Assembly: GCA_021831565.1 (NCBI GenBank)
Contig: JAKBMM010000022.1
Coordinates: 1-43,503, forward strand
Length of the DNA stretch: 43,503 nt
Direction: 5' to 3'
Origin: Planctomycetota bacterium
GTDB lineage: Bacteria; Planctomycetota; Phycisphaerae; WQYP01
Shown here piece by piece: positions 9,009 through 21,814 of this stretch. The translations under genes and the position numbers were made by a program. The stretch's first letter is position 1. Each line of letters begins with the position of its first letter. The notes below the pieces were generated by a model. It saw nothing but the letters and a program-made list of their open reading frames with translations, did no database searches and was not told the DNA's origin.

Positions 9009-10442
9009 TCACCATGAATCCGGTATGCGGACGTTGCGCGGCTGGAAATTTTCCGACCAGCGCAACTGCCAGAGTTGCGCCAACGGCACCGTGCGAACCG
9101 AGCCGTCGACAAACGCAACGTTGATCTGCCCCATGTGCCGATTGATGCAGAACAACCCCATATCGTCATTGGCGTTGAGCGACGCATTGCCCTGCTGCAG
9201 ATTGGAAGGTACCGCATCGGTGGACTGCGGGCTGCCATCCACCCAGATACAGTCCGCCAGCAAGGGCTGATTAGCCAGCAGATGCGAGCCTTGCGCGCGC
9301 GGATCAAACGACGGCGTGCGGCCCTGCACCATGGTTCCCTTGCCGGAGTTTGAATATTGTCCATCGACCACCAGTACACCGGTGAGGTTGTACCTTCCGC
9401 TGATCGAAAAGTTCCCGGCTGTATAAATGCCGCCATTGAGGTTGCACTGGCCGGAGATGTTTACATTTCCCAGACACACAATGTTGATTTTGGCCGCGCC
9501 GCTGCCATTGGCCGGGAACCAGCCGGAAAGATCCACGTTGCCGGTGACCAACAAGGTTCCCGATCCAATGATTTGCATTTGGCCGCTGTTGGTGAAATTT
9601 CCGTTGATGAGCTGATACGGATTTTGGGTGAAATTAATCACCTGTCCAGGACCGGCGGATCCTCCGCCACCTCTGCCATCGCCATGGCCATCGCCATGGC
9701 CATCGCCGCCGTCATCGCCGTTTTCCTGGCTTCCATTGTCTTCTGACCCGCTGGCTTGTTGTGGATTATCCTGGCTGACAATCTGGTTGAATATCGCCTG
9801 TACGCTCGGCGGTTGCAGACCGGGAATATCCGGTGTCCGCGAGCCGCTGACGTTCGTGTCGCCCGAGAAGATAATCCCGCCTCCCGACTCGAGATTTCCC
9901 TGCACGGTGGTGCGTCCGCTGCCGATAATATTTGTCGCCGAGGTGATATCGCCGTAATAAGTCTGGTTTCCACTCAGCGCAATACCACCGTATGCCGCCA
10001 GGACCGATATTTGCCCGGCCGGGTTCACGTAATTATTCAGACCATAACTGGCGGTGACGTTCTGCAACCAGGGGAAGGCTTTGGAGTAGGGTTGATCGTT
10101 CGTGCCGATCGGTCCCCAAGCCAGCGTGGCGGCTCCCACGCCGGCGGATGATTCGGCCGCGTCCGGGCAAATCGAATTGGCCGCCATGTTGGTGTCGTAT
10201 GGCTGGAGTTCCGTATACCAGTATCCATTCGGAATCCGGTAATCGCTGGGCATGGAGCCGTGATTATGGACCGCATATTCGTTGGCGGCCAAAGCCAGTT
10301 GATGCAGATTGGACTCACATTCCGTGGTCTGCGCGAACTGCCTGGCCCGGTTGTACGTTGCCAACACAATCGCCATAAGTACCATCGCGCTGACAACCAC
10401 GACCAGCAGTTCGATTAGGGTAAAACCGTGCCGCGTACGCAT
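9009..10442 (-). CDS. H-X9-DG type pseudopilin with inserted beta-solenoid domain
   Basis: The protein has 477 residues. ATG 10442 is preceded by a run of six G at 6 nt and starts directly with the prepilin signal MRTRHGFTLIELLVV, where cleavage after Gly and the Glu at +5 are canonical for type II secretion/type IV pilus-like subunits. A cysteine-containing pseudopilin head follows (TECESNLHQLALAANEYA). The C-terminus carries HMGQINVAFVDG, an exact H-X9-DG motif as in the DUF1559-type proteins abundant in planctomycetes. Unusually, about 300 residues in between consist of short strand repeats (GNQTYYGDITSATNIIGSG, LVTGNVDLSG, GNVNISGQCNLNGGIYTAG) with a Gly/Asp/His linker, resembling polymer-forming or DUF7305-like repeats. 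It is probably an envelope or extracellular fibre or surface protein. It stands alone, with no pilus assembly genes nearby. Confidence 0.85.
   Translation of the reverse strand: MRTRHGFTLIELLVVVVSAMVLMAIVLATYNRARQFAQTTECESNLHQLALAANEYAVHNHGSMPSDYRIPNGYWYTELQPYDTNMAANSICPDAAESSAGVGAATLAWGPIGTNDQPYSKAFPWLQNVTASYGLNNYVNPAGQISVLAAYGGIALSGNQTYYGDITSATNIIGSGRTTVQGNLESGGGIIFSGDTNVSGSRTPDIPGLQPPSVQAIFNQIVSQDNPQQASGSEDNGSQENGDDGGDGHGDGHGDGRGGGGSAGPGQVINFTQNPYQLINGNFTNSGQMQIIGSGTLLVTGNVDLSGWFPANGSGAAKINIVCLGNVNISGQCNLNGGIYTAGNFSISGRYNLTGVLVVDGQYSNSGKGTMVQGRTPSFDPRAQGSHLLANQPLLADCIWVDGSPQSTDAVPSNLQQGNASLNANDDMGLFCINRHMGQINVAFVDGSVRTVPLAQLWQLRWSENFQPRNVRIPDSW
9676..9708. repeat. 12-bp tandem repeat inside the pseudopilin gene
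   Basis: GCCATCGCCATG occurs twice in full and once as 9 of 12 bases. On the coding strand it encodes a Gly-Asp-Gly-His linker. Such short in-frame repeats can change copy number by slippage. Confidence 0.8.
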
Positions 10443-11003
10443 AATATGCCCCCCTTTTTTAACCAAGCTGCGCATTGCGATAGCCCGCGTTCTGGGCATC
10501 CCGATCCACCGGACCGGTAAGACCTGGTGTTTCACGAAGTTCGATAAAACGGGCTACACACGCCGTTTTATGCGAGCGAACCGGCTTGGCCGGCAGCAGA
10601 TTACCATTACGTAAGATGGCGGGAGGTGTTGAGACAACGATTTTAAAACAGGCCGCCATGATGAGTTCCGAAACAAACAAAGTCGGATCATTCGTGCGAC
10701 CTCCGTGTCATCAAGCGAATACCACTTTACTACTTCGGCGGAAAGGCCCCTTGAATTCCATTAAAAATCGCCGATTGCAACATCCGCAAGCGGTAGCGGG
10801 CTGAAAAAGTGAAAAAAACCGAAAATAACCGGCATTGACCGGCCGCACACCTGTAAATATCATGTAAACGGACTTCGGTGGCCGAATAATTTGTTGGTGG
10901 CGGCCCGCAATCCCGACGGCTGTTGGGAATATAGACAGGCATCGAAAATGCCCCTCTCAAGAAGCCGGTTGTACAAGTCCCGGCGCCCCTTGGAGCTTGG
11001 AGA
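10443..11003. other. Gene-free divergent region between pseudopilin and E1 genes
   Basis: No convincing gene is visible in these 561 bp. I see two hairpins: ATAAAACGG/CCGTTTTAT with a 10-base loop (10544-10571), and TCCCGAC/GTTGGGA with loop GGCT (10911-10928, one wobble). The rest probably holds the leaders and promoters of the two divergent units, but no clear -35/-10 pair stands out. Confidence 0.5.
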
Positions 11004-13052
11004 ATGGCCCAACCGCAAAACCTGGTGAACCCGGCAACCCACGAATCGGCGAACGGGATATCCCGCGCTTTTTCCGGGGACCAAGGCTCAAATGAGACGT
11101 TGCTCGATCAAATTGGCCGTGAATCCGTCGAAAAAGCCTTTCTGATCCGGCGCGTGGAACAAACCTTTCTTCAGCTTTTTTCCGAAGGGCGGCTCTTTGG
11201 AACCGTGCATACCTGTGTTGGGCAAGAGTTGATCGGCGTCGCCGTCGCCAGGGCGCTGCGGGCGGATGACTGGATATTCAGCAACCACCGCTGTCACGGC
11301 CATTTCATAGCCAAGACGGATCTGGTGGAGGGTCTGATCGCGGAAGTCATGGGTAAACAGGCGGGCGTGTGCGGCGGCTGGGGCGGCAGCCAGCATCTAT
11401 GCGCGCGGCGTTTTTTCAGTAACGGCGTGCAAGGCGGCATTGTGCCGGTGGCCGCCGGATTGGCCCTGGCGGAGAAACTACGGGGCACGGAGAACATCGC
11501 GGTGGTTTTCATCGGAGAGGGAACGCTCGGCGAGGGCGTGATTTATGAAGCGGCGAACGTGGCCGCGCGATGGTCGCTGCCGTTGCTGATCGTTCTGGAA
11601 AACAACCATTACTCGCAGAGCACTCCCCAGGAGGAGACGATCGCCGGCAACATCGCCGCGCGCTTTGCCGCGCTGAATATTCAATGCCTGGACACGAACT
11701 GCTGGGATGCCCGCGGGCTTTTCCAGACCACGCGCGAGGCGGTTGAGTACGTCCGCGGCCAGAAGCGGCCGGCGTTTGTGCGGATTGAAACCTATCGCCT
11801 CATGGCGCATTCCAAGGGAGATGATGATCGCGATCCCCAGGAGGTGCGCAACTACTGGGAAAAGGACCTGCTGGAAACATTCCGTAAAAATTCGCCCCGC
11901 CCGACCGAGGCTATCCTGACCGCTGTTGACCTACGCGTGCAACAGGCGGTGGCCGCCGGTCAGGTTTCACCATACGCCCAGGTCCGCCCGGAACAAAGCC
12001 CCGATACCTGCGATCTAAAGCCGGTACGCTGGCATACCGCGCGGATGGAATCGAAAGAGCGGATCGGGCAGGCCATTGCCGATTGCTTCGCCCGGCGGAT
12101 GGAAATGGACGAACGCATCGTCATGCTCGGCGAGGACATCCGCTCACCCTACGGCGGAGCATTCAAGGCGACCCGGGGATTGAGCGACAAGTTTCCCGAA
12201 CGGGTGCGCAATATGCCCATCAGCGAAGCGGCCATCGTGGGCATTGGCAACGGATTGGCGCTCCATGGGATGCGGCCGGTATGCGAGATCATGTTCGGCG
12301 ACTTCCTGACTCTGGCGTGCGACCAGATCATCAATCATGCCTCGAAATTTCCACGCATGTACAATGGCCAGGTTCAGGTTCCGCTGATTATCCGCACGCC
12401 CATGGGCGGCGGACGCGGTTACGGACCCACCCACAGTCAAAGCCTGGAGAAACACTTCCTGGGCCTGCCGCAAACGTGGGTGCTGGCTCTGCACGAGAGG
12501 ATTCATCCAGCGACGATTTACGACCGGCTTTTCGATATGATCGATCGCTTCACCCTGGTGATTGAGAACAAACTCATGTACACCCGGCGGCTTTCTCCGG
12601 AGGTTCCCGATGGCTTCGTGCTGGAACATTCGGATGAGCCTTTCCCCACCACCCGGCTTCGGCCGGGAGGTCAAGCTGACGTAACCGTGGTCTGTTACGG
12701 GGGAAACCTGCCCCTGGTGGAAGAGGCGGTTCTGCGGGCATTTGATGAACACGAAATCATCGGTGAAATCATCTGTCCCACGCGGCTGTATCCCCTGAAC
12801 GCGGCGCCCATGCTGGAATCGGTTCTGCGCACCGGCCGGCTGGTGGTGGTGGAAGAGGGGCACGGCTTCGCGGCGTGGGGATCGGAATTGATTTCTCGCC
12901 TCTGCGAAGCGCGCCCGGGCGTTCCGGCCAAAGTGGTTCGCTGCGCCATGCCGGCGCACCCGATTCCTTCCAGCGGACCTTTGGAGAAAGCCCTCCTGCC
13001 GAATCCGGACTCCATTCTGAAAAACATAAGGGGGATTTGCGCCCGTGTCTGA
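11004..13052 (+). CDS. 2-oxoacid dehydrogenase E1, alpha and beta subunits fused
   Basis: The protein has 682 residues. ATG 11004 follows GGAG (10992-10995) at 8 nt. Residues about 40-330 are an E1-alpha unit with the thiamine-diphosphate motif GEGTLGEG...LENN (171-201) and the loop MAHSKGDDDRDPQEV (about 267-281). Residues about 346-682 are an E1-beta unit (MLGEDIRSPYGGAF, PISEAAIVGIGNGLAL, GYGPTHSQSLE). This enzyme decarboxylates a 2-oxoacid and reductively acylates the lipoyl group of its E2. Fused alpha/beta E1 proteins are known in several phyla. Substrate choice (pyruvate, branched-chain or other) cannot be read from sequence by eye. The next gene, an E2, starts inside the last codons of this one (8-nt overlap), which argues for coupled translation and a dedicated complex. 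Confidence 0.92.
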   Translation: MAQPQNLVNPATHESANGISRAFSGDQGSNETLLDQIGRESVEKAFLIRRVEQTFLQLFSEGRLFGTVHTCVGQELIGVAVARALRADDWIFSNHRCHGHFIAKTDLVEGLIAEVMGKQAGVCGGWGGSQHLCARRFFSNGVQGGIVPVAAGLALAEKLRGTENIAVVFIGEGTLGEGVIYEAANVAARWSLPLLIVLENNHYSQSTPQEETIAGNIAARFAALNIQCLDTNCWDARGLFQTTREAVEYVRGQKRPAFVRIETYRLMAHSKGDDDRDPQEVRNYWEKDLLETFRKNSPRPTEAILTAVDLRVQQAVAAGQVSPYAQVRPEQSPDTCDLKPVRWHTARMESKERIGQAIADCFARRMEMDERIVMLGEDIRSPYGGAFKATRGLSDKFPERVRNMPISEAAIVGIGNGLALHGMRPVCEIMFGDFLTLACDQIINHASKFPRMYNGQVQVPLIIRTPMGGGRGYGPTHSQSLEKHFLGLPQTWVLALHERIHPATIYDRLFDMIDRFTLVIENKLMYTRRLSPEVPDGFVLEHSDEPFPTTRLRPGGQADVTVVCYGGNLPLVEEAVLRAFDEHEIIGEIICPTRLYPLNAAPMLESVLRTGRLVVVEEGHGFAAWGSELISRLCEARPGVPAKVVRCAMPAHPIPSSGPLEKALLPNPDSILKNIRGICARV

Positions 13053-14481
13053 ACCCACCGCGATTTTCGCGCCCCTGAACAATGTCAATGACGAAAGCAT
13101 TCTCGTGGTGGAAATCCGCCATAAAGACGGCGATTTTGTGTCGAAAGACGCCGTCCTGCTGGTGGCGGAAACCAGCAAAGCCACTTTTGAAATTCAGGCC
13201 CCTCATGACGGATATGTTCGTTACCTGGCTAAAGTTCAACAGGACGTTCCCATCGGGGCCCCGCTGTGCCTGCTGGCGGAATCGTCCGAACAGGTTTGGC
13301 AGGCCGCGCCGCCGGTCCCGAAAGGCGCCGGGATCGCCACAGAAGACGCCGGCCATGCGGAAGAGAATTTTCCACCCACCGCCGCGCCGCAACCCGTTCC
13401 GGCGCGGCAAGAGATCGCAGCCGAAGCGACCGCACAAATCGCCGGAGCTTCGGCCGGCCGGCGGTTGAGCAAGAGAGCCTGGGAACTTTTGAAACAACAC
13501 TCCGTAGATGCCGCGGCCATCACCGGTACGGGTCTGCTACGCGGCGCTGATGTGCGGCGCTGCCTGGGAATGGCCGCGGCGGATCAACCGGAGGGCAAAC
13601 CCTCTCCGGCGGCGGGTCCGGCGCGGGCGACGGCGGCGGCTTCGCTGGTTTGCGACCACGTGGTGGAGGGCGTTGCCAGGCACGAGCAGAAGCTGCCCCA
13701 CTCCAAACGAACGGAAATATCTATATTAGCTACAGCACACGCCAGTGCGATAACCAGCCAGGTTTCCACGCTGGTTCCGTGTCAAAGAATTTTTGAACTT
13801 TGCAGTCAAAAAACGGAATTTTCCGGAGAAATGTCCAGCCGGATTATTTTTGAGACATCCCGTCTTCTCCGGCGGTATCCAATGCTCAATGCCGGTTATC
13901 GGGCTGGACACATTGTTTATTATGACGAAATCAACATCGGGTACGCCATCGACGTGGACCACGGGCTGAAGGTTCCAGTGTTTCCCCGCGCCGACGAAAT
14001 GACGCTGGAGCAAATTCATGAATACAAGCGGGATCTTCTTGAAAAGTACCTGCTCAATGCGCTTTCCCTTGATCATCTGGCCCGTGGCACATTCACCATG
14101 ACCGATCTTTCCGCCCAAGACGGCTGGATTTTCAATCCGATCATCAACAAGGGGCAGGCCGCAATACTCGGAGTCACCGGCGAACAACAGCTCGCCGCCG
14201 GGCAATTCGCTTTTGGACTGGTGCTGGCTTTTGATCACCGCCTTACGGACGGCCTGGCGGCGAGCCGGTTCCTGGCGGAGCTTAAACGCCGGTTGCTGGC
14301 CCATGAGGCCCTGCTGCTGCGACGGATGGGCGTTGCGGACGAGGGGAACCGGGAACCGTATTGCGAGGAATGTCTCCAGCCGGTCTCGGAAATCAAACGA
14401 CGGCGGAACCACCTGTTCAAAACGGTAACGGCCGATGGACGCGAGCGGTTGGTCTGCTCGGTATGCGCAGGAGGATATTAG
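13045..14481 (+). CDS. 2-oxoacid dehydrogenase E2-like lipoyl acyltransferase with C-terminal four-cysteine knuckle
   Basis: The protein has 478 residues. The start is GTG 13045, with AAGGGGG at 13028-13034. Residues 1-80 are a lipoyl domain with the modifiable lysine in AETSKA (K45). An Ala/Pro linker leads to a peripheral subunit-binding domain (about 137-176, RRLSKRAWELLKQHSVDAAAI). Residues about 215-425 are the catalytic acyltransferase core, with GTFTMTDLS...INKGQAAILGVTG and the active-site DHRLTDG (H398, D402). The core's beginning (HSKRTEISILATAHASAITS) differs from common pyruvate-dehydrogenase E2s. After the core comes an addition not usual for E2: CEEC (440-443) and CSVC (471-474) around a basic stretch, which looks like a zinc ribbon. 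It accepts the acyl group from the E1 encoded just upstream. The acceptor could be CoA or the carrier domain encoded next. The stop overlaps the next start by 1 nt. Confidence 0.9.
   Translation: MSEPTAIFAPLNNVNDESILVVEIRHKDGDFVSKDAVLLVAETSKATFEIQAPHDGYVRYLAKVQQDVPIGAPLCLLAESSEQVWQAAPPVPKGAGIATEDAGHAEENFPPTAAPQPVPARQEIAAEATAQIAGASAGRRLSKRAWELLKQHSVDAAAITGTGLLRGADVRRCLGMAAADQPEGKPSPAAGPARATAAASLVCDHVVEGVARHEQKLPHSKRTEISILATAHASAITSQVSTLVPCQRIFELCSQKTEFSGEMSSRIIFETSRLLRRYPMLNAGYRAGHIVYYDEINIGYAIDVDHGLKVPVFPRADEMTLEQIHEYKRDLLEKYLLNALSLDHLARGTFTMTDLSAQDGWIFNPIINKGQAAILGVTGEQQLAAGQFAFGLVLAFDHRLTDGLAASRFLAELKRRLLAHEALLLRRMGVADEGNREPYCEECLQPVSEIKRRRNHLFKTVTADGRERLVCSVCAGGY
14469..14474 (+). promoter_or_regulatory. 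Ribosome binding site that fixes the ACP/AcpS start
   Basis: A perfect AGGAGG lies 6 nt before GTG 14481, inside the end of the E2 gene. It supports GTG 14481, not the upstream in-frame ATG at 14361, as the start. Confidence 0.85.
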
Positions 14482-15329
14482 TGACCGCTCCGCAAGAAAA
14501 ACTCCAGGAACTGATTGCCGGGCTGCTGGATATACCGCCCGAACAAGTAACAGCCGATCTGTCGTTGGACGTGCCGAAGTTTCGCGGTTCCGTGGGAACG
14601 GCCATTTTATCCGGGGCGATCGTCTCGCGGTTGGGCAGGCGCATCAATACCCGGGGAATGAAAACCTACGGAGAGCTTCTGGCCGCGGTAATCGGCCGGC
14701 CCGCGCCAAGCGCTCTTCCAGCCGCGGCGGAAACACGGCGCGTTCCGATCCCGGCGGCAACCGGGCCTGTGCTTGCCGCCGAGGCGCGTTGGGGAACGAC
14801 CGCCCCCGCCGGCGGGAACTGGGAATTGATTTCCTGCGGCACGGACATTGAGGAAATATCGATATTTCCGGAGACGAACGACTATTGGAACCACGATTTC
14901 TATAAGGAACATTTCACGCCGGAGGAGATCGCTTATTGCGTTTCCCAAGCGGCGCCACGCGAGCATTTTGCGGCGCGCTGGTGCGCCAAAGAGGCGCTGA
15001 AAAAAACTTCCGGTCAATTGATGAATCTCCCGTTTTCGCAGATTCAGGTCGGGAAACGTCCGGATGGTTCCGTCGCGCTGCAGGTTCGGCGCAATGACGC
15101 CTGGGTTGATGCGGCTTGCCGCGCGAGTCTTTCCCATACGCCCCGCTTTGCGATTGCCATGGTGATCGCCTTTGACGCGGCGGCGCCCGCCGGCGAAAAG
15201 GGAAAACAAGTTCCTGCCGCCGTTGGGAATGGCCAGGCTCCGTTGAATTCCAACGAGGGCAAACGTTCCGCGGCAAAGGAGATTGGTGATAAGAAAAGAA
15301 CATTCCTGTTGAAACGATTCTTTGGTTGA
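14481..15329 (+). CDS. Fusion of acyl-carrier-like domain and holo-ACP synthase (4'-phosphopantetheinyl transferase)
   Basis: The protein has 282 residues. GTG 14481 shares its first base with the E2 stop TAG. Residues 3-72 follow acyl carrier protein layout: a first helix (EKLQELIAGLLDIPPEQV), a loop, then FRGSVGTAILSG, where S37 sits where the phosphopantetheine serine is expected, although the usual Asp before it is Gly. After a Pro/Ala linker, residues about 115-240 match AcpS: GTDIEEISIF with the metal-binding D122, HFTPEEIAYC, and FAARWCAKEALKKTSG with K170/E171. AcpS transfers phosphopantetheine from CoA to a carrier serine. A carrier joined to its own activating enzyme, directly behind E1 and E2, suggests that the E2 product is loaded on this carrier (inference). 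The last 45 residues are Lys/Ala-rich and unassigned. The ACP call is less certain than the AcpS call. Confidence 0.82.
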   Translation: MTAPQEKLQELIAGLLDIPPEQVTADLSLDVPKFRGSVGTAILSGAIVSRLGRRINTRGMKTYGELLAAVIGRPAPSALPAAAETRRVPIPAATGPVLAAEARWGTTAPAGGNWELISCGTDIEEISIFPETNDYWNHDFYKEHFTPEEIAYCVSQAAPREHFAARWCAKEALKKTSGQLMNLPFSQIQVGKRPDGSVALQVRRNDAWVDAACRASLSHTPRFAIAMVIAFDAAAPAGEKGKQVPAAVGNGQAPLNSNEGKRSAAKEIGDKKRTFLLKRFFG

Positions 15330-18386: not shown

Positions 18387-18511
18387 TGCGTGGTAAAATG
18401 CGAGCGCATTGGCCGGTATAAAACCTGAGTGAACGGTCATTTGGGATGGCGATCAGCGGAAGTTTCGCCGGTCCGCCTGCGGGCCTTGGCGTGAATGAAA
18501 GGTTATTAAGG

Positions 18512-19945
18512 ATGGCGATCAACGTGGGCACAGTCAGTGCGGGAGTTGACACGGTCGAACGGCCCGGTAACCGGACTTATCGCGGCCCGTTCACCATTAT
18601 GACCATCCTTTTTTTCATGTGGGGGTTCATGACGGTCTGGAATGACATTCTCATTCCACGCTTTAAAGAGGCGTTCACGCTGAATTACTTTCAAGTGATG
18701 CTGATCCAATTTGCGTTTTTTGGAGCTTACACTTTTGGATCGCTGGTCTATTACCTGGTTTCCATGTTCTGGGGTGATCCCATCAACCGCATCGGCTACA
18801 AGAACGGCGTAATCATCGGCCTACTTCTCGCGGCGGCGGGAAGCCTCCTATTTTACCCGGCGGCTATATTAATATCCTATCCGTTTTTTCTGATGGCGTT
18901 GTTTATCGTGGGCGTGGGATTTGCGATGCTGCAGATTGCCGCCAATCCGTACATCACCATTCTGGGGCCCGAGCGCACCGCTTCGAGTCGACTAAATCTC
19001 TCGCAAGCCTTTAATTCCTTCGGTACAACCATCGGCCCGATCATCGCGGGTTGGCTGATTTTTAAAGTGTTCAATGGTCCGGGGAGCCATGGAGCGCAGT
19101 CTGTAAAAATTCCCTACCTTTGTCTGGGGGTCGTGTTTCTGGCGCTGGCGGTGTTTTTTATGTTCGCCCATTTGCCTAACTTTACGAACACGGAACATGT
19201 CACCCGCGGAGCCGGGGCGCTTAAGCACCCGCATACCGTGCTGGGGATGCTGGCGATTTTCATGTACGTCGGCGGTGAGGTTTGCGTGGGCAGCTCCATT
19301 ATTAATTATCTCAACCTGCCCAAGCTTGGCGGGCTTAGCCATGAGGAGGCCTCCAAGTTTCTCGCGTTTTACTGGGGCGGCCTGATGATCGGCCGGTTCA
19401 TGGGTGCTTTTGCGCTGAGCGATGTCAGAAAATGGCTGCGCAATACGATAGTGGTATTGCTTCCGGTGGTGGCTTTTATCACGATCTGGGTGCTGTCCGG
19501 ACGGGCCAATGCGCTGCATTATGGCGTAATGCTGGCGGTGATGCTGGCGGCATTTTTTCTGGGCGCGGCCAGCCCGCAGCGAATGCTGGCGTTGTTCAGC
19601 TTTATTATCATCGCCCTGCTGTTGACGGGCATGCTCTCGGCCGGAGCCGCGGCGATATGGGCGATACTTGGTATCGGTCTATTTGATTCGGTCATGTGGT
19701 CGAACATCTTTTCACTGGCCATTGAGGGGCTTGGGGCACTCAAAAGCCAGGCCGCATCGCTGCTGATGATGTCGGTGTTCGGCGGGGCGCTGATGCCGCC
19801 GCTGCAGGGTATTGTGGCGGATCACATCGGCATTCAGTTATCCTTTATTGTGCCGATGGTATCCTACGTATACATTGCGTTCTATGGCTTGTATGGATAC
19901 CGTGCCGGGAGGCGGTCTAAAGCGATCCCCGCCGGGAATATTTAA
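18512..19945 (+). CDS. FucP/GluP-type sugar:H+ symporter (MFS)
   Basis: The protein has 477 residues from ATG 18512, with GAAAGG about 10 nt upstream; an earlier ATG at 18446 in the same frame is possible but lacks a spaced ribosome site. About twelve hydrophobic segments are visible. Several stretches match the fucose/glucose-galactose permease family closely: FFMWGFMTVWNDILIPRFK, FTLNYFQVMLIQFAFFGAY, GVGFAMLQIAANPYITILG and RLNLSQAFNSFGTTIGPIIAG. Near the end, FDSVMWSNIFSLAIEGLG and MMSVFGGALMPPLQGIVAD also fit. It imports a monosaccharide across the inner membrane with protons; which sugar cannot be told. It faces the convergent DUF4838 gene. Confidence 0.9.
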   Translation: MAINVGTVSAGVDTVERPGNRTYRGPFTIMTILFFMWGFMTVWNDILIPRFKEAFTLNYFQVMLIQFAFFGAYTFGSLVYYLVSMFWGDPINRIGYKNGVIIGLLLAAAGSLLFYPAAILISYPFFLMALFIVGVGFAMLQIAANPYITILGPERTASSRLNLSQAFNSFGTTIGPIIAGWLIFKVFNGPGSHGAQSVKIPYLCLGVVFLALAVFFMFAHLPNFTNTEHVTRGAGALKHPHTVLGMLAIFMYVGGEVCVGSSIINYLNLPKLGGLSHEEASKFLAFYWGGLMIGRFMGAFALSDVRKWLRNTIVVLLPVVAFITIWVLSGRANALHYGVMLAVMLAAFFLGAASPQRMLALFSFIIIALLLTGMLSAGAAAIWAILGIGLFDSVMWSNIFSLAIEGLGALKSQAASLLMMSVFGGALMPPLQGIVADHIGIQLSFIVPMVSYVYIAFYGLYGYRAGRRSKAIPAGNI

Positions 19946-19999: not shown

Positions 20000-21814
20000 T
20001 TAGTATGACAATTTCTTATCGATAGCCGCGGCCCAATCGGAAACCGGACGGGATTCCGAAATATCCCCCACGCCGAACCGCCGGAGAGCTTGCACGAAAC
20101 GGTTGAACTTCTTTCGGAACGAAGCTTTCTTCGCCGCGGGAGAGTTCTTGGCGGGCATGCGGCGCATCAATTCCACATAGCGTATGCTCAAGCGCGCCTC
20201 CTGAACGCGATGGAGCTGGGCGGGATTGGACTTTACCGCCGCCTGCGCTTTTTGAAACAGGTGGTTCGCTTTTTTCAATACGTTCGAGTTCAGGTAGGGC
20301 GCCATGATGGAATCGCCTTCGCCCATCCGCACGTTCGGTCGGTGCGCCTGGTTCTGCATCAATCGTAAATACCGGTAGATATATCGACCAGCCGGACCGT
20401 AATAACCGTTGCTGAACTCCCGGACCAGCTTCCAGACGTTCTGCTTCGGGTTCCACAGCAGATGCGCTATCACCCAGGTGCGCATCGCCATCATCTCACC
20501 GATGGAATCGTGATCGCCCTCACAGAAGACGCCGGAAACCCCGTGCTCATGAAAAATTTGAAAGTCGGCGCCCAGCTCATCCCAATCGGGAAACGGCTGG
20601 AGGTAGTTGGCGAAATTCGTTACGTACTGCCAGACCTGCAGGTGACCGGGGGCCACTTTAGCCCACCCCAACAGACATTTGTACGTGAAGCGATTGTGCG
20701 GCGAAGCAAGCGAGTGCGCAAAATCCATACCAATCGGGGCCAGGCACACCAGGACATGAGGTCCCGGTTTGATGGTGCCGGGTATGGGAGGCTTCTCCGT
20801 ATATTGATAGGCCAGTGTATCGAACCAGATGTCGCGGCCCGGGAGTTGTTTCTGCACCGCGGCGGCCACCTGGTTCACGAAATTCAACAGAGTGCCTGAC
20901 GGCGCGCCGTACCGGGCGTCACTGGCCCGGGAGCGGGCGCCCTGGGAATTTCCATCTGCCGCGTCATTCGGCGAAAGCCCCAGCGTGAGCTGTTCAGGGT
21001 TGGCTTTAGCCTCCGCCACCAGCCCCGCGGTGACGATCCGGAGCACGTGGGGATTTACCAGGGAAAGTTGGGAGCCGGGAGCGTCGCTGCGCTTCCCATT
21101 GATTAAACTATAATATTCGGGGTGTTTGGCAAAATACTTCGAAGGCGGCACCAACTGGTAGAAATTTTCCGAACCCTGAAACAACCGGTTGATCCCCCCC
21201 AAATAGGCCCTGTCCGGAACGCTTACGCCGTCTAATTTCAGATGAGCATCCCACTGGGCGGACGTCTCCGCCATGTACTCATCCGTATCCCGATACGAAA
21301 AAGCGGGAGCCTGCCTTTCATGCAGTGGTGGAATCTTCACCACCCGACGGTGGGGTATAAATGTATCGTTCGGTGAATACCAGCGAACCCCGAGCCGCTC
21401 TTCCAGAAATGTGTAGACCGCATAGAGTGTTCCCCGGTCGTCGTTACCCGCCAACGCTAAATTCCGGCCGGAAGTCTCTATGAAAAATCCCTCCGCCGGC
21501 AAAGAACGCAGCGCCAGTTTGGGGAAAGCCGCCAGCAACGCGTGGCTCGGCCCGACGTAGATGGCCGGACTGCCGGTTTGCTTGGAAGTGATGACAAAAT
21601 TCGCTCCTGAAATCTGATGCAGATCCGCCGATAACTCACCGGCGGCATGTTTTACCGTCGCCGAGGCCTTCGCGCCGATCACGATCGCATACCGCGTGCG
21701 GCCATGGGCGGCCAGTGTCAGGGCGGCGCCGGCGGCCATGCGGGTTACGCTCGCCACGGCCAGGATGGGGGTCAGAAAGCAGATGAGAAGTGAATATCGC
21801 CGGCACACTTTCAT
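20000..21814 (-). CDS. Secreted DUF4838 family protein
   Basis: The protein has 604 residues. ATG 21814 follows CAAGGAG at 6 nt. A Sec signal is visible at residues 1-30 (SLLICFLTPILAVASVTRMAAGA). The N-terminal part (about 35-150) has the alpha-glucuronidase-N-terminal-like layout seen before DUF4838: AAGELSADLHQISGANFVI, AIYVGPSHALL, GNDDRGTLYAVYTFLEERLGVRWYSP. The DUF4838 region follows, with NFVNQVAAAVQKQLPGRDIWFDTLAYQYTEKPP split over two strands, then PHVLVCLAPIGMDF and HEHGVSGVFCEGDHDSIGEMMAMRTWVIAHLLWN. Such proteins are common in planctomycetes and Bacteroidetes near polysaccharide-degradation genes and are presumed carbohydrate-active, but I know of no settled activity. Confidence 0.82.
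   Translation of the reverse strand: MKVCRRYSLLICFLTPILAVASVTRMAAGAALTLAAHGRTRYAIVIGAKASATVKHAAGELSADLHQISGANFVITSKQTGSPAIYVGPSHALLAAFPKLALRSLPAEGFFIETSGRNLALAGNDDRGTLYAVYTFLEERLGVRWYSPNDTFIPHRRVVKIPPLHERQAPAFSYRDTDEYMAETSAQWDAHLKLDGVSVPDRAYLGGINRLFQGSENFYQLVPPSKYFAKHPEYYSLINGKRSDAPGSQLSLVNPHVLRIVTAGLVAEAKANPEQLTLGLSPNDAADGNSQGARSRASDARYGAPSGTLLNFVNQVAAAVQKQLPGRDIWFDTLAYQYTEKPPIPGTIKPGPHVLVCLAPIGMDFAHSLASPHNRFTYKCLLGWAKVAPGHLQVWQYVTNFANYLQPFPDWDELGADFQIFHEHGVSGVFCEGDHDSIGEMMAMRTWVIAHLLWNPKQNVWKLVREFSNGYYGPAGRYIYRYLRLMQNQAHRPNVRMGEGDSIMAPYLNSNVLKKANHLFQKAQAAVKSNPAQLHRVQEARLSIRYVELMRRMPAKNSPAAKKASFRKKFNRFVQALRRFGVGDISESRPVSDWAAAIDKKLSY

Follow-up and report, generated by a model that had tools for sequence, protein, structure and literature searches.

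Three overlapping genes in the window, by which we mean the whole 43,503-nucleotide stretch of planctomycete DNA that was analysed (contig C77 of the 2.8-Mb genome G000), encode a fused 2-oxoacid dehydrogenase E1, a lipoyl E2 and a protein that joins a carrier domain to an AcpS-type phosphopantetheinyl transferase. We consider the chances about even that this trio is a dedicated accessory complex that loads acyl groups from a 2-oxoacid onto its own, probably orthogonal carrier, the acyl group probably being spent on a surface glycan or glycolipid. The domain identities, the carrier fold, the conservation of the three genes as a unit, the charge inversion of the carrier, the glycan-type neighbourhood in four relatives and the membrane helix in three are supported by computation.

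In the proposed scheme E1 would decarboxylate a 2-oxoacid and transfer the acyl group, by reductive acylation, to the lipoyl group on K45 of E2. We infer that the catalytic domain of E2 would then pass it directly to the phosphopantetheine of the carrier, which the fused AcpS domain would attach at S37, and that the acyl group would finally be used at the membrane on a cell-surface glycan or glycolipid. E3 would be borrowed from the ordinary complexes of the host. Counting in favour of this scheme are the catalytic residues retained in the lipoyl domain, in E2 and in AcpS, the co-occurrence of the three genes and their non-housekeeping status.

Organisation and occurrence of the trio

All three genes lie on the forward strand. 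E1, with its alpha part preceding its beta part, occupies 11004..13052 (682 aa), E2 13045..14481 (478 aa, GTG start) and the carrier-domain/AcpS fusion 14481..15329 (282 aa, GTG start); as originally stated, E1 and E2 overlap by 8 nt, E2 and the third gene by 1 nt. A ribosome-site-like sequence precedes each start, which the original prediction had noted for the two internal ones, namely GGAG at 10992-10995 (+), AAGGGGG at 13028..13034 (+) and AGGAGG at 14469..14474 (+). The motifs named in the original prediction are likewise present: GEGTLGEG...ENN in E1, the lipoyl K45 and DHRLTDG in E2, and GTD and WCAKEA in the AcpS domain. Between the window genome and a congeneric species (G001), Ka/Ks is 0.14 for E1, 0.26 for E2 and 0.27 for the carrier/AcpS gene, and all three genes are thus under purifying selection.

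The trio is rare: a search of 397 sampled genomes of the class with an E2 profile gave six positives (G000, G001, G012, G089, G099 and G550). In 6/6 of these E1 stands before E2 and the carrier/AcpS gene follows directly after it, so the co-occurrence of the three genes that had been proposed as a check extends to every sampled genome of the class with a match. Chance neighbourhood is ruled out by the homology of these genes, their adjacency and their constant order in 6/6 genomes. Among the genomes searched, no fusion bearing this N-terminal carrier domain was found without the trio E2 nearby. Across the phylum (392 genomes), the window gave the only match spanning the N-terminal carrier domain; the other five genomes were not among the matches. 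Relatives outside the class were sought and none was found, the search of genome contigs returning the congener alone. A plasmid search with the lipoyl domain returned 15 records, all below 60% identity, and the three loci inspected turned out to be E1/E2 operons of the ordinary kind, each including an lpdA.

The host carries two further, canonical E2 genes (contigs C74 and C38), at least two genes over the TIGR01350 (lipoamide dehydrogenase) cut-off (C63, in a frame with one TAA, and C53), a canonical AcpS (C36) and other PP-binding carriers. These copies of E2, E3, AcpS and ACP elsewhere in the genome rule out the trio as the housekeeping complex. They also bear out the remark that no E3 is adjacent to the trio, since the E3 genes sit elsewhere.

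E2, its acceptor and the genomic setting

E2 matches PF00364 (Biotin_lipoyl) and PF00198 (2-oxoacid_dh) over cut-off, and a peripheral-subunit-binding-like segment between these two domains aligns with canonical E2s, with no Pfam match to such a domain at E 0.1. The lipoyl lysine K45 (13177..13179, +), in the context ETSKA, is invariant in the relatives according to the alignments; the residues around it read SKA in the trio and DKA in the canonical E2s of the host. In the catalytic domain, the alignments place His398 and Asp402 within DHRLTDG (14236..14250, +). His398 is invariant, and Asp402 is replaced by Glu in G012, G089 and G099, a substitution that counts against the proposed scheme. 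The protein ends in a CxxC...CxxC tail (C440, C443, C471 and C474; 14362..14466, +), present also in G550 and absent from the canonical E2s of the host, that is a putative zinc ribbon. This tail had escaped the original prediction, as had the membrane anchor described below for three relatives.

The acceptor of the E2 reaction separates the loading scheme from its main rival. Characterised E2s of 2-oxoacid dehydrogenases usually transfer the acyl group to CoA, and the trio E2 keeps the standard catalytic fold and its His. E1 and E2 might therefore make ordinary acyl-CoA, with the carrier being loaded later from acyl-CoA or by another enzyme and the operon representing one pathway. A possible parallel is the polyoxypeptin operon, in which a KAS III and a small protein that may be a carrier accompany the E1 and E2 genes, direct transfer not having been demonstrated (PMC3943440). 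Nevertheless, no second acyltransferase, ligase or ketosynthase was found to be common to the six loci, and the 1-nt overlap of the E2 and carrier genes suggests that the two products are made in a coupled manner. We regard this rival as unlikely, while taking it seriously.

Where the acyl group might go is suggested by the gene neighbourhoods. In G089 the trio is preceded by genes for GT2 and GT4 glycosyltransferases, an asparagine-synthase-like protein, a methyltransferase, an FAD oxidoreductase, an epimerase and a hexapeptide acyltransferase, and is followed by an LPG_synthase_TM gene; G099 and G550 have a closely similar arrangement. The trio of G012 is surrounded by glycosyltransferase, flippase-like and acyltransferase-like genes, named from their translations. 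In the window the trio lies next to a DUF1559 prepilin-like gene and a gene for component I of anthranilate synthase. As these are not of glycan type, the glycan link rests on the relatives, and the lack of known glycan genes beside the trio in the window and the congener counts against the proposed scheme. So does the search for a glycan acyltransferase common to all six loci, which found none: the hexapeptide acyltransferase adjoins the trio in G089, G099 and G550 only, with no close orthologue in G000, G001 or G012. A branched-chain starter unit for lipids or a secondary metabolite, the example offered originally, finds no support nearby, as the neighbours in four of the five relatives belong to glycan or glycolipid assembly and are not ketosynthases. 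As a whole, the original interpretation is supported in part.

The C-terminal tail of the third protein (15174..15326, +) is basic in the window (KKRTFLLKRFFG). In G089, G099 and G550 it is instead a membrane helix, hydrophobic with Kyte-Doolittle means over 19 residues of 1.64-2.50. The window and G012 proteins end in the basic tail LLKRFFG/LLRRIFG.

The fold of E2 is shared with acyltransferases of the chloramphenicol acetyltransferase type. E2 could thus act in that manner on a hydroxyl or amine of a glycan or lipid, while the carrier brings another building block or tethers the acceptor. The Asp-to-Glu exchange in relatives, the extra four-cysteine tail and the glycan neighbourhood would all fit such a role. 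Set against it are the retention of E1 and of the lipoyl domain and lysine, all of them required for a loading route, and the fact that no other carrier-loading enzyme is adjacent. We give this alternative a low probability.

Other features of the window include a DUF1559/prepilin-type protein with a Gly/Asp/His-rich stretch, encoded divergently from the trio at 9009-10535 (-), and, at 20000-21814 (-), a DUF4838 protein whose N-terminal domain is GH67-like, next to an MFS transporter at 18446-19945.

The carrier/AcpS fusion and E1

Residues 1-73 of the third protein (14481..14699, +) form an acyl-carrier-like domain according to an AlphaFold model, Foldseek and a profile alignment with ACPs. 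The model (pLDDT 81) contains helices at residues 4-16, 32-35, 37-51 and 63-71. The best 50 Foldseek matches listed from the PDB are all acyl carrier proteins, some of them within complexes, with query TM scores of 0.62-0.78 and probabilities of 0.94-1.00 at weak E-values of 0.012 and up. Ser37 (14589..14591, +), at the start of helix II (37-51), is the predicted site of phosphopantetheine attachment from alignment and model. It is invariant in 6/6 genomes within the local motifs GSV/TSA/SSI/GSL, and hhalign pairs it with the serine of the ACP DSL motif. Alignment with the carriers of the same genomes scored 25.7, compared with at most 18.7 for column-shuffled controls (n=100). We therefore predict an acyl-carrier fold for the N-terminal domain, and model, Foldseek, hhalign and the invariance of S37 agree with the carrier fold originally proposed.

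The domain is nonetheless far from an ordinary ACP. Its match to PF00550 (PP-binding) stays below cut-off (12.6 bits vs 20.8, E 0.17), a sequence-profile search against PDB sequences returned chance or repeat-driven matches only, and both the DSL motif and an acidic helix II are missing. The lack of DSL and the sub-threshold PP-binding match count against the proposed scheme. Given the absent DSL, the basic helix II and the sub-threshold Pfam score, we class it as carrier-like and strongly divergent.

The AcpS-type domain (residues 117-231; 14829..15173, +) is recognised by several criteria, with PF01648 scoring 53 bits vs a cut-off of 25, Foldseek matches to AcpS and to the phosphopantetheinyl transferase (PPT) domain of fungal fatty acid synthase (FAS), and D122, E171 and K175 invariant in the alignment. 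Profile and structural matches here concur with the original assignment.

The two domains differ in charge from their usual counterparts. Helix II carries a net charge of +1 to +3 in the six dedicated carriers; the corresponding values are -1 to -7 for E. coli AcpP and the remaining carriers of these genomes. On the AcpS side, the stretch that follows the catalytic Asp averages a net charge of +0.9 (range -3 to +8) across 53 other AcpS domains from the phylum, and its charge is -4 or -5 in the five dedicated domains measured. Arg occupies position D+6 in 52/53 of the former; the latter have I, I, T, N and N. In AcpS-ACP complexes (e.g. PDB 1F80), the acidic helix II of the carrier docks onto the face of AcpS that bears this Arg. 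This basic face with Arg at D+6 is missing from the five dedicated AcpS domains measured. The joint change of charge on both sides suggests that carrier and AcpS are probably an orthogonal pair, separate from fatty-acid synthesis, which would explain the need for a second, fused AcpS. The apparent charge inversion, read from the aligned sequences, was not part of the original prediction and is new here.

The same features could be read as those of a structural or docking helix bundle that is no working carrier, with the AcpS domain serving another carrier. Such a bundle would account for the missing DSL motif, the sub-threshold Pfam match and the basic helix II. It is harder to reconcile with the invariance of S37 in six genomes and its alignment with the ACP serine, with the ACP fold in all of the best 50 PDB matches listed, and with an AcpS acceptor side that changed its charge together with the carrier, and we consider it improbable. 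The loading scheme in its narrowest form is a CoA-independent, charge-inverted line in which the acyl group passes from lipoyl directly to a private, self-modified carrier, insulated from fatty-acid metabolism, and acylates a surface glycan at the membrane. This form is plausible, but we lean somewhat against it.

A lipoyl protein beside AcpS is also found apart from the trio. Three planctomycete genomes from two families (G158, G398 and G391) encode a stand-alone protein with lipoyl and subunit-binding-like segments and no catalytic domain that directly adjoins a canonical AcpS (loci L070, ~12.6-13.6 kb; L071, 4218-5157; L072, 1733-2625). In two of the three a FabF-like KAS adjoins the pair. 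This adjacency is an independent link between lipoyl proteins and AcpS.

E1 contains PF00676 (E1_dh, residues 44-295), PF02779 (Transket_pyr, 355-497) and PF02780 (Transketolase_C, 557-671), all over cut-off, so that the Pfam domains uphold the E1 as well as the E2 assignment. The thiamine-diphosphate motif region GEGTLGEG...ENN, located from sequence and alignment, spans 11511..11608 (+), and E1 is 54-95% identical among the relatives. The gene is split between two frames in G550 (contig C218; L098, 10.2-12.2 kb), possibly through an assembly fault or a real frameshift. Because the best score of the alpha part is to PDH E1 alpha, pyruvate or a close relative is weakly favoured as the most likely substrate. 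E1 also matches the profiles of transketolase and DXS, though less strongly, and has sugar-type neighbours in relatives. These features would allow a transketolase- or carboligase-like E1 that adds two carbons to a sugar or lipid and for which the lipoyl protein and carrier are oxidative accessories, but the PDH E1 alpha and beta matches are much stronger (206 and 154 bits) and the lipoyl E2 would be unnecessary, making this very improbable.

Comparison with known systems

Cells normally obtain their acyl-ACPs from acyl-CoA or through the action of ATP-dependent ligases. Direct carrier loading by a 2-oxoacid complex, if true, would be a different entry point, powered by oxidative decarboxylation, and a carrier/AcpS pair of reversed charge, if true, would be a natural orthogonal carrier channel of the kind wanted by pathway engineers. 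Our literature search of open-licence papers found no characterised E1-E2-carrier loading system.

The trio resembles the PDH, BCKDH and OGDH complexes in its thiamine E1, in its lipoyl E2 with a subunit-binding-like segment and a catalytic domain, and in an E3 available in trans. It differs in the fusion of E1 alpha and beta, in an E2 that has SKA instead of DKA around its lipoyl lysine and a four-cysteine tail, and in a third gene that encodes a carrier/AcpS protein in place of E3. The polyoxypeptin genes orf5-orf10 encode an alcohol dehydrogenase, a KAS III, two proteins of 82 aa (orf7 hypothetical, orf8 E2-type) and E1 beta and alpha, and like the trio they bring genes for a 2-oxoacid dehydrogenase and for acyl chemistry linked to an ACP together in a single operon; in contrast to the trio, the genes are separate, a KAS III is present, the setting is that of a secondary metabolite and no AcpS fusion is reported (PMC3943440).

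The alpha subunit of fungal type I FAS also carries a carrier and an AcpS-type (PPT) domain on one polypeptide, and among solved structures its PPT domain is the nearest to the trio AcpS domain in sequence and fold. The trio protein, however, is small, stand-alone, two-domain and charge-inverted, and its partners are E1 and E2 rather than FAS domains. In the Dlt system, the carrier DltC delivers D-alanine to teichoic acid after DltA has adenylated the amino acid. No MBOAT gene was recognised among the trio neighbours examined. As we propose for the trio, Dlt uses a dedicated carrier for the acylation of a cell-surface polymer, but the trio carrier would be loaded from a 2-oxoacid instead of an adenylated amino acid.
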